Origin: Planctomycetaceae bacterium
GTDB lineage: Bacteria > Planctomycetota > Planctomycetia > Pirellulales > PALSA-1355
Direction: 5' to 3'
Length of the DNA: 64,000 bases
Assembly (NCBI GenBank): GCA_003153375.1
Contig: PLYM01000028.1
Location: forward strand, 1-64,000
The first letter of the stretch is position 1, and every line of letters starts with the position of its first letter. The notes beneath the pieces were generated by a model. It worked only from the letters and a program-made list of their open reading frames with translations. It had not been told where the DNA came from and ran no database searches. The position numbers were made by a program, and so were the translations under genes. Below, one piece after another: positions 45,749 to 51,438 of this stretch.

Positions 45749-47590
45749 ATGATGATGCGGACCGAAAAGCGAACGAACTTAGCGGCCCCTGTCGGTTCTA
45801 TTCTGCCGCGTGGATCGATGCACGCCCTGGGATTGGTGATTCTTGTTGCGATCGTTTTCTGGCCAATACTCGATAACGGTTTCATTTGGGATGACGCCGA
45901 AAACCTGGAAGACAACCCCGCGCTCAAATCGCTGCCCGGGTTGCGCGACATCTGGTTCAAGCTGGGGGCAACGCCTCAATACTATCCGCTGACGCAAACC
46001 AGTTTCTGGATCGAATATCACCTCTGGAAACTCGACCCGCGTGGCTATCACCTGGTGAGCCTGCTCCTGCACGCGGTCGCGGCGGTGCTGGTGTGGCGCG
46101 TCTTGCTGCGGCTGGCAGTTCCAAGCGCCTGGTTCGCAGCCGCGCTGTTCGCGGTCCATCCGATTTGCGTGGAGAGCGTGGCTTGGGCGACAGAGCGAAA
46201 AAACCTGCTGTCTTGCATCCTGGGCCTGGGCGCGCTGCTGGCCTATTTTCAGTTTTCGCCCCCCGACCATTCGGTTGAGTTGAATAACAGCCCGAGCACG
46301 TCGGCCAGCAGGCGGCGATTTTACGCCTTGGCCCTGTTGTTGTACGCCGGGGCGCTGTTGAGTAAGACGGCCGTCGTGGCCCTGCCCGCCGTGCTGCTGG
46401 TTCTCTTTTGGTGGAAGCACGGCCGGTTGACGTGGCGCGACGCTCGGCCCCTGGTGCCGTTTTTCGCGATCGGGCTGGCACTGGGCTGCCTGACAATCTG
46501 GGTGGAGAAACACCACGTGGGTGCCGCGGGCCAGGAGTGGAACATGCCGCTCGTTGATCGCTTTCTGGTCGCCGGCCGCGCGTTGTGGTTCTATGTCGGC
46601 AAGCTGCTTTGGCCCGACCCGATCGTCTTTGTCTATCCCCGCTGGGCCATCGACTCGCGTGCCGCCTGGCAATATGTCTTTCCCGTGGCTGCGCTGCTGG
46701 CAATCGTTGGACTGTGGCTGGCGCGAGGGCGGCTGGGCCGGGGCCCCATCGCCGCGGTGGTGATCTTTGCTGGGCTGCTCTTGCCGGTGCTCGGATTCTT
46801 CAACGTCTACATGTATCGTTTCACGTTCGTTGCCGATCATCTGCAATACCAGGCCAGCATCGCCCTGTTCGCGCTGGCGGCAGCCGCCCTGGCGACGTTC
46901 GCGGCACGCGTGTTCCCAGCCAAAACGTGGGTCGTCGTGGCGGCCGGCGCCGCGGTGATCGTTCCCCTGGCCTTACGCTCGCGCGCGCAGACGTTTGCCT
47001 ATCAGAATTCCAAGACGATCTATGAGGAGATCATCGCCCACAACCCGCTGTGTTGGATGGCGCACATCAACCTGGCCGAGTACTTGCAGCGGCGCGGCGA
47101 TAGAGCCGCGGGCCTGGCCTGCCTGGAGACGGCCGTAGCGACGTTCAATCGACTCGAGGAGACCGATCCCGATAACTCGGCGATCTTTCGCGGTCGCGGC
47201 GATTTGAATCTGCGACTCGGCAAGCAGCGGCAAGCGATTGCCGATTATGATCGCGCGATCGAACTCGACCCAGAAAATCGCGAGGCGATGAACAATCTGG
47301 CCTGGTTGCTGGCCACCGCGCGTGACGACCGCTTGCGAAACGGCCAACGGGCCGTCGAGTTGGCCAGCCAGCTGGGCAAGGAAGGGAGCAGCGCGAATCC
47401 GCACACGCTGAGCACGCTGGCAGCGGCCCATGCCGAAGTGGGCGACTTCGAGGCCGCCGTGGCCGCGTTGCGACAAGCCGTCGAGCTGAGCGGCGAACAA
47501 GTCAGCCGAAACCTGCATCGCGAGCTCGAAAGCTACGAAGCCGGCAAGCCCTGGCGCGAAGGCCCAGCAATCGCTTCCGACGCCCCTTAG
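45749..47590 (+). CDS. GT-C-type membrane protein with TPR tail (TMTC-like), second copy
   Basis: Paralogue of the protein at 40858, 613 aa, with the same membrane half: DNGFIWDD (Asp48/Asp49), GLRDIWFKLG, PQYYPLTQTSFWIEY and AVHPICVESVAWATERKN. The TPR tail is shorter, with only about three repeats (residues 435-600), and ends with the shared EAMNNLAWLLATARDD block. It starts with three ATG codons in a row; I use the first. The gap of about 200 bases before it shows nothing I can name. Its last four bases overlap the end of a convergent membrane protein gene. The two copies suggest tandem duplication with later change of the tail. Confidence 0.8.
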   Translation: MMMRTEKRTNLAAPVGSILPRGSMHALGLVILVAIVFWPILDNGFIWDDAENLEDNPALKSLPGLRDIWFKLGATPQYYPLTQTSFWIEYHLWKLDPRGYHLVSLLLHAVAAVLVWRVLLRLAVPSAWFAAALFAVHPICVESVAWATERKNLLSCILGLGALLAYFQFSPPDHSVELNNSPSTSASRRRFYALALLLYAGALLSKTAVVALPAVLLVLFWWKHGRLTWRDARPLVPFFAIGLALGCLTIWVEKHHVGAAGQEWNMPLVDRFLVAGRALWFYVGKLLWPDPIVFVYPRWAIDSRAAWQYVFPVAALLAIVGLWLARGRLGRGPIAAVVIFAGLLLPVLGFFNVYMYRFTFVADHLQYQASIALFALAAAALATFAARVFPAKTWVVVAAGAAVIVPLALRSRAQTFAYQNSKTIYEEIIAHNPLCWMAHINLAEYLQRRGDRAAGLACLETAVATFNRLEETDPDNSAIFRGRGDLNLRLGKQRQAIADYDRAIELDPENREAMNNLAWLLATARDDRLRNGQRAVELASQLGKEGSSANPHTLSTLAAAHAEVGDFEAAVAALRQAVELSGEQVSRNLHRELESYEAGKPWREGPAIASDAP

Positions 47591-48120
47591 CCGCCACTGA
47601 GCAGGCGATGAATCCGCGCCAGGATTTCGCGGATGGTGCTCGTCGATCGGGGACCGTGCCGCCCTTCGGGCAGCCGAAGCGAGAAGAACCGCATTCGCGA
47701 AGCGGACGTCGAGGCGCGCTGGGCGCTCGACGACGTTGCGTCGGCCAAATAGTGCGAGAGACTGTCGTCGAACGAACGGGCCCCACTGCCGCGCGGCCCG
47801 AAATCGGGTCCGGCGTCAATCGCTTCGGAGCGGCGAGGATCGCCGAGCGCCGCCGCGACTCCGAATAGGACCGCGGAGATTATCATGGCGCCTACCACCA
47901 CGAACGAGCCGGCAACGGCCCATTGAGAGAGCTGCGGCTGGTCTATCTGTCCTTCGGACCACTCCATCAGTGCCCACAAAACGCTAGCCACGAACGGCAG
48001 CCCAGTACACAAGGCGCCAAGGCCGGCCCCGCGCAACAGGCCCCGGCCGACGGCCCGCGGTCGCCACCATCGATCGCTATCCCCGGACGGCGGGTGCGCG
48101 ATGCTGTTTCGATCGTCCAT
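47587..48120 (-). CDS. membrane protein of unknown function next to nrdR
   Basis: Protein of 177 aa that I do not recognise. Two transmembrane segments (about residues 30-52 and 70-92) are followed by a long polar tail rich in Ser, Arg and Asp, with DDSLSHYLADATSSSAQ in the middle. It starts 22 bases after nrdR on the same strand, with an AGGTG site, so it is probably in the same transcript. The stop overlaps that of the convergent TPR membrane protein gene by three bases. No function can be inferred. Confidence 0.68.
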   Translation of the reverse strand: MDDRNSIAHPPSGDSDRWWRPRAVGRGLLRGAGLGALCTGLPFVASVLWALMEWSEGQIDQPQLSQWAVAGSFVVVGAMIISAVLFGVAAALGDPRRSEAIDAGPDFGPRGSGARSFDDSLSHYLADATSSSAQRASTSASRMRFFSLRLPEGRHGPRSTSTIREILARIHRLLSGG

Positions 48121-48142: not shown

Positions 48143-48769
48143 TTAGTCGTCCCGTCCCGGACCGGCGGGCGGATTGGCCTTGGCCATCATGCCGTCGAGT
48201 TCGTCGACAAAATCCTGCACGTCCTGAAATTGTCGATAGACACTGGCGAAGCGGACGAACGCCACCTGGTCGAGCTTACGCAAATGTTGCATCACCAACT
48301 CTCCCAGAATCGTCGATTCGACCTCGGGCTCGGCCCGGGCGTGTACGTCGTTTTCGACTTCGACGACGATCGCCTCGATCTGCTCGTCGCTGATCGATCG
48401 CTTCCAGCAGGCCTTTTCGAGTCCCTGGCGTATTTTCTGCCGCTCGAAGGGGGCCCGGGTGCCATCCTTCTTGATGACCTTGATGGCGCGCTCCTCGCTG
48501 CGTTCGAAGGTCGCGTATTGCCGGCGGCAGGCCAGACACTCGCGCTGGCGACGGACGGCAAAGCCGCCTTCACCAATATCGGTTTCTAGCAGGCGGTTAC
48601 TGTCCTCGTGACAAAACGGGCACTTGATCGGATCGTCGACGCGCTCATACGTGTTATAGCGCGTCTGACAGCCCAGGCACTCACGGCGACGGCGAATCGC
48701 GAAGCCATCGTGACTCGTGCGCGAGTCGATGACCCGGTCGTTGTCGACGCCGCAACTAGGACATTTCAT
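48143..48769 (-). CDS. nrdR: ribonucleotide reductase repressor NrdR with doubled zinc ribbon
   Basis: Transcriptional repressor of ribonucleotide reductase genes, 208 aa against the usual 150-160. The difference is a duplicated N-terminal zinc ribbon: Cys3, Cys6, Cys31, Cys34 in the first (MKCPSCG, RRECLGC) and Cys50, Cys53, Cys78, Cys81 in the second (IKCPFCH, QRECLAC), each with the family's RR-rich loop. The ATP-cone domain follows from about residue 96 (VIKKDGTRAPFERQKIRQGL). The C-terminal FVRFASVYRQFQD is typical. The duplication may widen or strengthen DNA contact with NrdR boxes. No nrd gene is in the window. Confidence 0.93.
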   Translation of the reverse strand: MKCPSCGVDNDRVIDSRTSHDGFAIRRRRECLGCQTRYNTYERVDDPIKCPFCHEDSNRLLETDIGEGGFAVRRQRECLACRRQYATFERSEERAIKVIKKDGTRAPFERQKIRQGLEKACWKRSISDEQIEAIVVEVENDVHARAEPEVESTILGELVMQHLRKLDQVAFVRFASVYRQFQDVQDFVDELDGMMAKANPPAGPGRDD

Positions 48770-49007
48770 GACAGACTCGATGCCGGCGAGCTAGCCCGGC
48801 GAACGCACAGGGCCCGCCAATGGGCCCAAACCTGGGCACCCCCATGATACCAAGAAGGGTTGGACCAACCAGCCGACAGGGCCAAATTGAGCGCGCTGGC
48901 CCCCGCACGACCGGCTCGCGAAGCTCTAGTGCCGTTTGCTCAGCCAACCTTATAATTGCGACGCGCCGTTCTTCGATTTCCGGGTCACGCGAGTCAGGAG
49001 GGTTCGC

Positions 49008-49694
49008 ATGAAATGCCAGGTTTGCCATGCCGAAGCCGGCGCCGACGCGGCCTTTTGCCCCCACTGCGGCGCCAAACTGGCGGGCATTGACAGCAAAGCG
49101 GCAAATCCGGCTGCGGCACCTGCCGTGGTCGAAGAGGGGAGCGGCGCCACGGCCGGCGCGGCTCTGGGAGGGCGCCGCCGCGCGGTCGATGTGCCCGAGG
49201 AAACTTTGTGGGAAGGCCGCTATTCGCCCAAAGCCATGTTCGGGTCCATCTTGGGAGCCGCGATCGCCACGCTGGCGCTCTTGATCGTGGCGGGATTGCT
49301 CGGCGACTCCGACTTCTGGGGCGTGCCGTTGGCTGGCATCGCCGTGATCTGGCTGCTGGTTGCCGTTCGCTTCGCGCACAAGCGGCTCGGCATTCACTAT
49401 AAGCTGACCAACCAGATGTTCTATCACCAGCACGGCGTGCTCACCCGCGTGAGCAATCGGGTGGAAGCGATCGACATCAACGACGTGACGTATGTTCAGG
49501 GTTTGCTCGATCGCCTGGTGAACGTCGGCAAGATTCGGATCGCTTCCAGCGATCAGACCAACGGCACGCTGTGGGTCGAAGGTGTCGAGAACGTGCAGGA
49601 CGTGGCCAAGTTGATCGACAAGGCTCGCCGCGCCGAACGCATCCGCCGCGGCGTCAGCGTCGAATCGATTGGCGGCGGGGCGCCATCTCCCTAG
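49008..49694 (+). CDS. zinc-ribbon plus bacterial PH-domain membrane protein
   Basis: Protein of 228 aa. A zinc ribbon (MKCQVCHAEAG, FCPHCG; four Cys) opens the chain, a polar linker follows, then VPEETLWEGRYSPKAMFGS leads into two transmembrane segments (about residues 78-120) and a bacterial PH domain (YdbS/bPH_2 type: YKLTNQMFYHQHGVLTRVSNRVEAIDINDVTYVQGLLDRLVNVGKI in outline). The role of these proteins is mostly unknown. AGGAGG six bases before the ATG is one of the best ribosome sites in the window. It is divergent from nrdR and convergent with rpoN. Confidence 0.82.
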   Translation: MKCQVCHAEAGADAAFCPHCGAKLAGIDSKAANPAAAPAVVEEGSGATAGAALGGRRRAVDVPEETLWEGRYSPKAMFGSILGAAIATLALLIVAGLLGDSDFWGVPLAGIAVIWLLVAVRFAHKRLGIHYKLTNQMFYHQHGVLTRVSNRVEAIDINDVTYVQGLLDRLVNVGKIRIASSDQTNGTLWVEGVENVQDVAKLIDKARRAERIRRGVSVESIGGGAPSP

Positions 49695-49743: not shown

Positions 49744-51438
49744 CTACTCTCCGGCCGACAAGTCCGAGACGCCGTTGGACTTGTGCGGCTCGGCCCCGTG
49801 CGAATCAGACCCGTGCGAATCGGCGGCACGGCCGAAGCTCTTGTGGCCGTCGCTCGCCGCGTGATGACTCGCACCATCCCCGTGTTGCGGCCGCTCTTCA
49901 ACGAGTTGAGCGGGCACGTCGGCCAGCGGCGTCGGGGGAATAGCTGCAACTGGGGGAGCGGGGGCACTCCAGTCGCGGCGCTGGCGCGAGCTGGCGATGT
50001 CCATGGCCTTGCGATATTTGGTCACCGTGCGACGGGCCACGGTCAAACCGTGCTTGGCCAATTCTCCCACCAGGTCATCGTCGCTGAGCGGATGCTGCTT
50101 GTTTTCGTTGTCGATGATTTCCTGCAACTTCAGTCGCACGGCGTCCCAGGCAATTTCCTCGCCGGCCGCGCTCACGGTGCCGCCGCAGAAAAATCGCTTG
50201 AGCGGAAAAATGCCGCGGGGCGTTTGAATCCATTTATCGTCGACCGCGCGGCTGACCGTGGTGACGTGTACGCCCACCTTGTCGGCGATTTGCTGCATTT
50301 TCAGGGGCTCGATGGCCTCGGGCCCCTTGCTGAGAAACTCGGTCTGATGGTCGACGATGGCCTGCGCCACGCGCGTCAGCGTGTTGCGGCGCTGCTCGAT
50401 CGATTCGATCAGCCACTGCGCCGAATTGATCTTCCGCTTGATGTATTCGCGGGTTTCGGCGTTGGCCTCACCGCTGGTGAGCAGCTTGCGGTAGTAGGCG
50501 CTGATATAGAGGGTCGGCGTGCGGCCGTCCTCGAGTCGCACCTTGTATTTATTGTCGTCGCCCAGTTCGACGAACACGTCGGGCGTGACATTGGGCACGA
50601 AAGCATCACCAAAATTCGCGCCCGGCTTGGGATTCAACTTGCGCAGCTCGTCGCGTGTCTGCTGAATCAGCGTGATCGAATAACCGGTCTTGCGCTCAAT
50701 GACCGGCAGACGGTTGTGCTCCAGATCCTCGAGATGGGTCGAGATGATCGTCTTGAGCTGTTCGTAATGCGGCATGTTGGGCAGGAGCTGCAACAACAGG
50801 CACTCCCGCAGGTCGCGGGCTGCCACGCCCGGCGGGTCGAGTTTTTGCACGACGGCCAGCGCCTGCTGCGCCAAGGCCAGTTGATCGGGGCCGCCGGTGG
50901 GATCGATCGTGTCCTCCAGCCGCGACTGTAAATAGCCGTTGGCGTCGAGGTTGTAGATGATACGGTCGCACATCGCCCGCAACTCGGGGCTGAGATTGAA
51001 CCAACCGAGCTGATCGTGCAGATAGTCGTGCAATGATTGCGGACGGGCCACCATGTTGGCCATCGCGTCGTGCTTGCGGGCCCCCTCTTCCTCGACCCGC
51101 GTGCTCGAGGGACGCGAGCGCTCCTCGAAGTGGTCGGGCCACTCCTCGTCCATGTTCAGCAGCCGCTCGAAATCCTCCTCATGGTTCTTCGTGTCGTCGA
51201 CCACCAACTCGCGCTCTTCCTCGCTGGGCGCGTTGGGGTTTTCTTCCTCGACGGGCTCCTCGGGCAGATCGAGATCCTCGTCGGCCAGGTCGAGCACCGG
51301 GTTCTCTTGAATCTCCTGCTCGATGCGTTCCTGCAGCGCCATGATCGGCAACTGCAGAATTTCCATCGACTGGATCATGCGCGGCGCAAGCACCTGCTTT
51401 TGAACCATGCGCAGTTCTTGGCCGAAGGAAAGTCGCAT
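49744..51438 (-). CDS. rpoN: RNA polymerase sigma-54 factor with His-rich C-terminal tail
   Basis: Alternative sigma factor for activator-dependent promoters, 564 aa. The N-terminal Gln-rich region I (LSFGQELRMVQKQVLAPRMIQSMEILQLPIMALQERI in outline) is clear, an acidic region II follows, then the core-binding domain, and the RpoN box ARRTVTKYRK at residues 468-477. In most RpoN proteins the box lies within about 25 residues of the end; here a low-complexity tail of about 80 residues rich in His, Ser, Asp and Pro follows. It is read last in the ffs-dnaX-ybaB-recR-rpoN strand, 85 bases after recR. No strong ribosome site before the ATG. Confidence 0.95.
   Translation of the reverse strand: MRLSFGQELRMVQKQVLAPRMIQSMEILQLPIMALQERIEQEIQENPVLDLADEDLDLPEEPVEEENPNAPSEEERELVVDDTKNHEEDFERLLNMDEEWPDHFEERSRPSSTRVEEEGARKHDAMANMVARPQSLHDYLHDQLGWFNLSPELRAMCDRIIYNLDANGYLQSRLEDTIDPTGGPDQLALAQQALAVVQKLDPPGVAARDLRECLLLQLLPNMPHYEQLKTIISTHLEDLEHNRLPVIERKTGYSITLIQQTRDELRKLNPKPGANFGDAFVPNVTPDVFVELGDDNKYKVRLEDGRTPTLYISAYYRKLLTSGEANAETREYIKRKINSAQWLIESIEQRRNTLTRVAQAIVDHQTEFLSKGPEAIEPLKMQQIADKVGVHVTTVSRAVDDKWIQTPRGIFPLKRFFCGGTVSAAGEEIAWDAVRLKLQEIIDNENKQHPLSDDDLVGELAKHGLTVARRTVTKYRKAMDIASSRQRRDWSAPAPPVAAIPPTPLADVPAQLVEERPQHGDGASHHAASDGHKSFGRAADSHGSDSHGAEPHKSNGVSDLSAGE

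Follow-up and report, generated by a model that had tools for sequence, protein, structure and literature searches.

Why would a repressor that ordinarily works with one zinc ribbon carry two? The question is raised by an nrdR gene in a 64,000-nucleotide stretch of DNA from a Planctomycetaceae bacterium (the window; contig PLYM01000028.1). According to PMC9110341, NrdR has 140–220 residues with a single ribbon and an ATP-cone, in some cases with a variable C-terminal part as well. In ordinary NrdR, DNA reading and chain pairing fall to the same ribbon, which makes these functions hard to mutate apart. In a protein with a second ribbon, nature provides a way to tell the reading residues of a ribbon from the pairing ones, and to learn how the signal of the ATP-cone crosses an extra domain to reach the DNA.

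The window gene (48143..48769, minus strand) encodes 208 aa plus a stop codon. It reads from 48769 down to 48143, from an ATG start to a TAA stop, without a frameshift. Ribbon 1 (R1; residues 1–46, 48632..48769) has the zinc ligands C3, C6, C31 and C34, ribbon 2 (R2; residues 48–93, 48491..48628) has C50, C53, C78 and C81, and both precede the ATP-cone (residues 96–183, 48221..48484), all on the minus strand. This is exactly the arrangement claimed in an earlier note on this DNA: the Pfam model Zn_ribbon_NrdR (PF22811) matched two stretches (108.1 bits, with the cut-off at 27.2), and the ATP-cone model (PF03477) matched once, over residues 96–183 (83.9 bits). The NCBIfam model TIGR00244, “transcriptional regulator NrdR,” scored 222.6 bits for the window protein and 227.0–231.9 bits for three two-ribbon homologues, against a curated cut-off of 124.65. 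The hallmarks of the family are present, with an ATP-cone after a ribbon and, in all four two-ribbon species, an R1 CxxC...CxxC module with D15, R17, RRRR and R37; with two PF22811 stretches and eight cysteines, however, the protein departs from the exactly-one-ribbon architecture. Here the family label by itself conceals a changed domain layout in a repressor that is considered universal. Unlike in other long NrdRs, the extra length of the 208-residue protein is not a C-terminal tail. No ATG, GTG or TTG codon stands at the start of R2, where I48 is encoded by ATC, and a truncated translation starting at that position was ruled out.

In a fold comparison, which served as confirmation only, the ATP-cone was matched by the ATP-cones of NrdR and of ribonucleotide reductases, and solved NrdR structures aligned with R2 plus the ATP-cone; the NrdR chains gave high rmsd values because the domain angles differ. 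AlphaFold2 modeled both ribbons well, each as three-stranded. One-chain models reached a mean pLDDT of 86.0 and a pTM of 0.57 for the whole protein (53 sequences), and 78.4 and 0.42 for the ribbons alone; the predicted placing of R1 relative to R2 is without confidence. Like the single-ribbon NrdRs of Streptomyces coelicolor and Escherichia coli (PDB 7p37, 9fvr, 9fxk, 9gex), the window protein combines a zinc ribbon with an ATP-cone, belongs to TIGR00244, has the DNA-contact residues in R1, and goes with a reductase gene preceded by two 16-bp boxes that lie about three turns from each other. Unlike them, it has a further ribbon after the reading one and ahead of the ATP-cone, and this ribbon is without R17, R28 and R37.

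The two-ribbon form is a trait of a lineage, the point that the earlier note had proposed to check by aligning planctomycete NrdRs. It is present at full length in all four genomes of the window's GTDB family, which are separate assemblies from three genera. The other three proteins are 83–88% identical to the window protein over the whole length, which rules out chance, and also an assembly error or frameshift, offered in the earlier note as a possible refutation, as the source of the repeat. In three of the four genomes, the gene was also found on named contigs (JACQFF010000133.1, JALHMI010000002.1 and QQVE01000010.1), all from metagenome-assembled planctomycetes. In the window genome (6.7 Mb, 291 contigs), the single match to the two-ribbon protein was the window gene itself.

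We surveyed the order, the class and the phylum for further cases. At the level of the order, 368 of 396 genomes had an NrdR match, and the full two-ribbon match occurred only in the four family genomes, among the matches listed (the best ~155). With the two-ribbon part as query, 252 of 397 genomes of the class matched and 145 did not, and an unbroken full match was seen only in the two family members drawn, again among the best ~155 matches listed. In the phylum, 362 of 392 genomes matched, and among the matches listed (best ~155) the only full one was in the window's genome, which was the sole family member in that draw. These surveys were limited to Planctomycetota, and a divergent doubled NrdR below the best ~155 matches could be missed. 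Genomes with at least two matches (15, then 32) were re-searched, and none had tandem ribbons; each second match was either the ribbon of a single-ribbon gene, aligned with R1, or a fragment, or a low-scoring hit at another place. Two genomes of the class survey, G385 and G927, matched residues 5–103 only by reading through a stop and were rejected as two-ribbon cases. Matches were found in 37 plasmid records and 17 phage records, where the 15 places listed for each set spanned at most 219 bases, too short for two ribbons; viral contigs gave no match to the two-ribbon protein. As a separate observation, the displayed no-match genomes of the class survey all came from families f6 and f118, much of which may be devoid of NrdR. 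No published description of a two-ribbon NrdR was found in the open literature searched, which included NrdR in planctomycetes.

The surroundings of the gene are those of an ordinary nrdR. The rpoN gene for sigma-54 (49744..51438, minus strand) lies in a neighborhood conserved with nrdR, and between them, on the opposite strand, is a gene for a bacterial PH-domain protein with a short zinc ribbon of its own (48936..49694, plus strand). A 177-aa open reading frame without a Pfam match (47587–48120, minus strand) lies downstream of nrdR. Since nrdR stands beside rpoN both in the two-ribbon family and in single-ribbon relatives (e.g. L039 and L114), the two-ribbon gene is the ordinary nrdR locus plus one ribbon. 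The single-ribbon NrdRs of sister Pirellulales (e.g. L114, in genome G419) share the rpoN neighborhood and the type of nrdJ operator and are 65–66% identical over the shared part; they differ from the two-ribbon form in having one ribbon, with R17, R28 and R37 all present.

A tree built from 110 ribbons put the four R1 sequences into one group and the four R2 sequences into another (100/99), with stem lengths of 0.28 and 0.55, which places a single origin before the split of the family's genera. The earlier note had proposed a duplication inside the gene. The repeated ribbon in one gene is real and present throughout the lineage, and such a duplication is its likely origin. The tree, built on 46 columns, leaves R1 and R2 unjoined, and the two ribbons of one protein are 43–52% identical. 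Alternatively, the second ribbon may have been acquired from another nrdR. Among the six pairs of species, dN was 0.04–0.08 for R1, 0.07–0.19 for R2 and 0.07–0.12 for the ATP-cone stretch, dS was at least 0.78 or saturated in every pair, and dN/dS of R2 was ~0.2 or lower. All four cysteines of R2 and many of its other positions were invariant across the three genera. These rates indicate that both ribbons are under purifying selection, R2 less so and evolving faster.

The two ribbons differ most tellingly at the residues that contact DNA. In the S. coelicolor NrdR–DNA complex, as described in PMC9110341, R12, R26–R29 and R37 touch the backbone, D15 and R17 lie at the bases and give specificity, and an R17A protein lost binding to wild-type and mutant operators alike. 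We compared the window protein with 102 distinct single-ribbon planctomycete NrdRs, a set gathered by similarity to it and not drawn at random; an earlier comparison with 82 such proteins had first shown the losses in R2. R17, R27, R28, R29, R37 and E42 were invariant in all 102. R1 of the window protein has R12, D15, R17, R26–R29 and R37, and D15 and the invariant residues are kept in R1 of all four species. In R2 of these species, the equivalent of position 17 is D, S, E and E, that of position 28 is Q, Q, Q and H, that of position 37 is Q throughout, and that of position 15 is E, E, E and D; in the window protein, the equivalents of D15, R17, R28 and R37 are E62, D64, Q75 and Q84. The earlier note had described an arginine-rich loop in each ribbon and had treated the ribbons as equivalent. 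The loop is intact in R1 (RRRR) and reads RRQR in R2, and equivalence does not survive the comparison: R2 lacks R17, R28 and R37 in 4/4 species, whereas R1 has them all. That R2 would no longer read the operator is well supported by these substitutions, and its losses are one ancestral event rather than four, as all four species share one family. R2 could still touch the DNA backbone, as the equivalents of R12, R26, R27 and R29 are kept.

The residues that pair ribbons show a different distribution. In E. coli structures, as described in PMC12176259, ribbons pair through an inter-chain strand of residues 39–45 and through salt bridges of R27, R29 and E42. In R1 of all four two-ribbon species, T39 has become N and E45 has become D, at positions that hardly vary among the single-ribbon relatives (T39 in 101/102, E45 in 99/102). 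R2 retains R27, R29, E42, R43 and E45 in all four species (R27, R29 and E42 correspond to R74, R76 and E89 in the window protein) and T39 in three, with A in the window protein. Position 36 holds a small residue in R1 versus R in R2 in 4/4 species, and single-ribbon proteins nearly always have R, K or H there. The strand of R2 is not fully conserved, as position 44 is S in 4/4 and position 41 is F, F, C and Y. Judged from these alignments, R1 and R2 have diverged in opposite directions. The altered strand of R1 could weaken the R1 pairs, which ordinary NrdR needs for kinking DNA, and from the retained residues only, a pairing role seems most likely for R2.

What DNA does this protein face? PF02867 and TIGR02504 both point to a single reductase large subunit in the window genome, the class II enzyme encoded by nrdJ, and an ATP-cone in NrdJ was sought with Pfam and gave no match. 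For the operator scans we used ACACWATATATWGTGT, which we take to be the consensus of the NrdR box. Papers on NrdR describe the box as palindromic, 16 bp long and with GC pairs that are conserved. The earlier note had proposed searching for boxes before the nrd genes of the same genome, and this search was productive: a pair precedes nrdJ in all three family genomes with a detectable nrdJ, and in the window genome its boxes start at 2906 and 2938 of locus L075, 32 bp apart. Start to start, the three pairs lie 32, 31 and 32 bp apart. In shuffles that kept base composition only, with every spacing between 18 and 60 bp scored, 0/40 reached the score of the real promoter in each of the three. A genome-wide scan allowing up to three mismatches found 30 places versus 19 for the reversed control, and among the listed places the nrdJ pair were the only two sites so spaced.

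The same operator geometry is used with one ribbon. At single-ribbon reductase loci, the best box pair lay at 31–32 bp in 15 of 19. We left the other four out of the half-site count: at L079 and L180 the antisense frame had been taken, with L079 having a weaker pair at 31 bp, and at L083 and L186 the best pairs were at 28 and 30 bp. Among the kept loci, shuffles reached the score in 3/40 trials for L179, 1/40 for L191 and 5/40 for L192. According to PMC12051234, box spacing is sensed as helix phase, with an optimum of 15–17 bp and a second minimum near 24–27 bp, and the linker is suggested to set flexibility. The suggestion of the earlier note that a doubled ribbon could change operator spacing finds no support in the family pairs before nrdJ, which at 31–32 bp are spaced as in single-ribbon relatives. 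The C opposite the conserved G was present in 12/12 family half-sites and in 60/60 kept single-ribbon half-sites, a count favored by the picking of boxes by score. Within 600 bp before nrdR, we found no box-like site above 10/16 that would point to autoregulation in the four genomes (best 9, 10, 9 and 9). The nrdJ promoter of the window genome is sigma-70-like (TTGACG, 16 nt, TAAGAT) and ends 11 nt before box 1; thus, the boxes cover the transcription start.

Based on these observations, we favor, with a probability of about 0.6, a reading in which R1 would read the boxes and R2 would act as a pairing or spacer module that does not read. When the ATP-cone carries dATP plus ATP, the R1 heads of four chains would each read a different one of the operator's four half-sites, in the manner of the single ribbon in ordinary NrdR. 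R2, placed between the head that reads and the ATP-cone, would pair and space without reading bases, and R2–R2 pairs would perhaps keep the tetramer together. The bound repressor would lie over the nrdJ transcription start region, and reductase synthesis would fall at high dATP. Because there are four half-sites with the base read by D15 and R17 and one reading ribbon per chain, the four R1 heads of a tetramer fit. Both functions would then apparently be separated within a single polypeptide whose operator is still the ordinary one. A fuller version is possible but tentative: with reading and chain pairing split, the outer ribbons would read and the inner ones would pair as a scaffold, forming an elongated eight-zinc tetramer on the ordinary three-turn operator.

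R1 might instead form a pair with R2 of its own chain on a single box; two chains, linked by their ATP-cones, would then cover an operator that ordinarily takes four. Such a pseudo-dimer would make sense of the salt-bridge residues R27, R29 and E42 kept in R2 and of pairing strands that differ in complementary ways, as expected of a heterologous pair. It would, however, put a non-reading ribbon on half of each box, yet all 12 family half-sites, in boxes picked by score, keep the C, and for ordinary NrdR the inversion of a single GC pair in each box meant a loss of ~60-fold, as reported in PMC9110341. AlphaFold2 did not pack R1 against R2 with confidence either (pTM 0.42; one chain only). Two chains with internal R1–R2 pairs do not fit because the four half-sites all keep the read base, and we regard this arrangement as unlikely. 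Somewhat less probable still is that R2 reads a second, different DNA element. The spacer sequence GGGCATCT, which stands directly before box 2 in 3/3 family promoters, would be a candidate, and R2 is under purifying selection and retains R12, R26, R27 and R29. At that place the single-ribbon locus L191 has GGGCATTC and L182 has GAGCATC, so the element may predate the second ribbon, and its conservation in three promoters that are themselves related may reflect common ancestry as well as function.

The substitutions in R2 can also be viewed from the inactive side of the cycle. Its former DNA face, normally buried in dodecamers or filaments, might have been remodeled to change sequestration in the ATP-bound state; the residues lost in R2 (15, 17, 28 and 37) are among those sequestered in ATP-loaded filaments according to PMC12176259. 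They are, however, the DNA-contact residues as well, so the pattern fits either role, and we give this explanation a low probability. That R2 is a neutral relic, a decaying duplicate without a role, seems very improbable: it does evolve faster than R1 (dN 0.07–0.19 vs 0.04–0.08; stem branch 0.55 vs 0.28), but four cysteines and many other positions are invariant over three genera with dS of at least 0.78, its dN/dS is ~0.2 or lower, and it is the ribbon joined to the ATP-cone.

Several further features were seen around nrdJ. In G394, the congener of the window's organism, a two-ribbon nrdR is present and no large subunit of a class I or II reductase was detected; the assembly is 95% complete, and the absence is probably due to a gap. 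Across Pirellulales (L075, 2867–2953 in G000:C70; L076, L077, L082, L179 and L187), nrdJ promoters combine a TTGAC-type −35 with a TAAGAT-like −10 that ends about 9–12 nt before box 1, and they do so whether the lineage has the doubled or the single ribbon. In the family, GGGCATCT occupies the end of the spacer (2922–2937 in L075; also in L076 and L077), and its place is taken by GGGCATTC in L191 and by GAGCATC in L182. The nrdJ leader of L075, in which no Rfam family was matched, has after box 2 an inverted repeat resembling CCACC-N3-GGGTGG (2971–2984), which is also found in L077 and in the single-ribbon locus L182.
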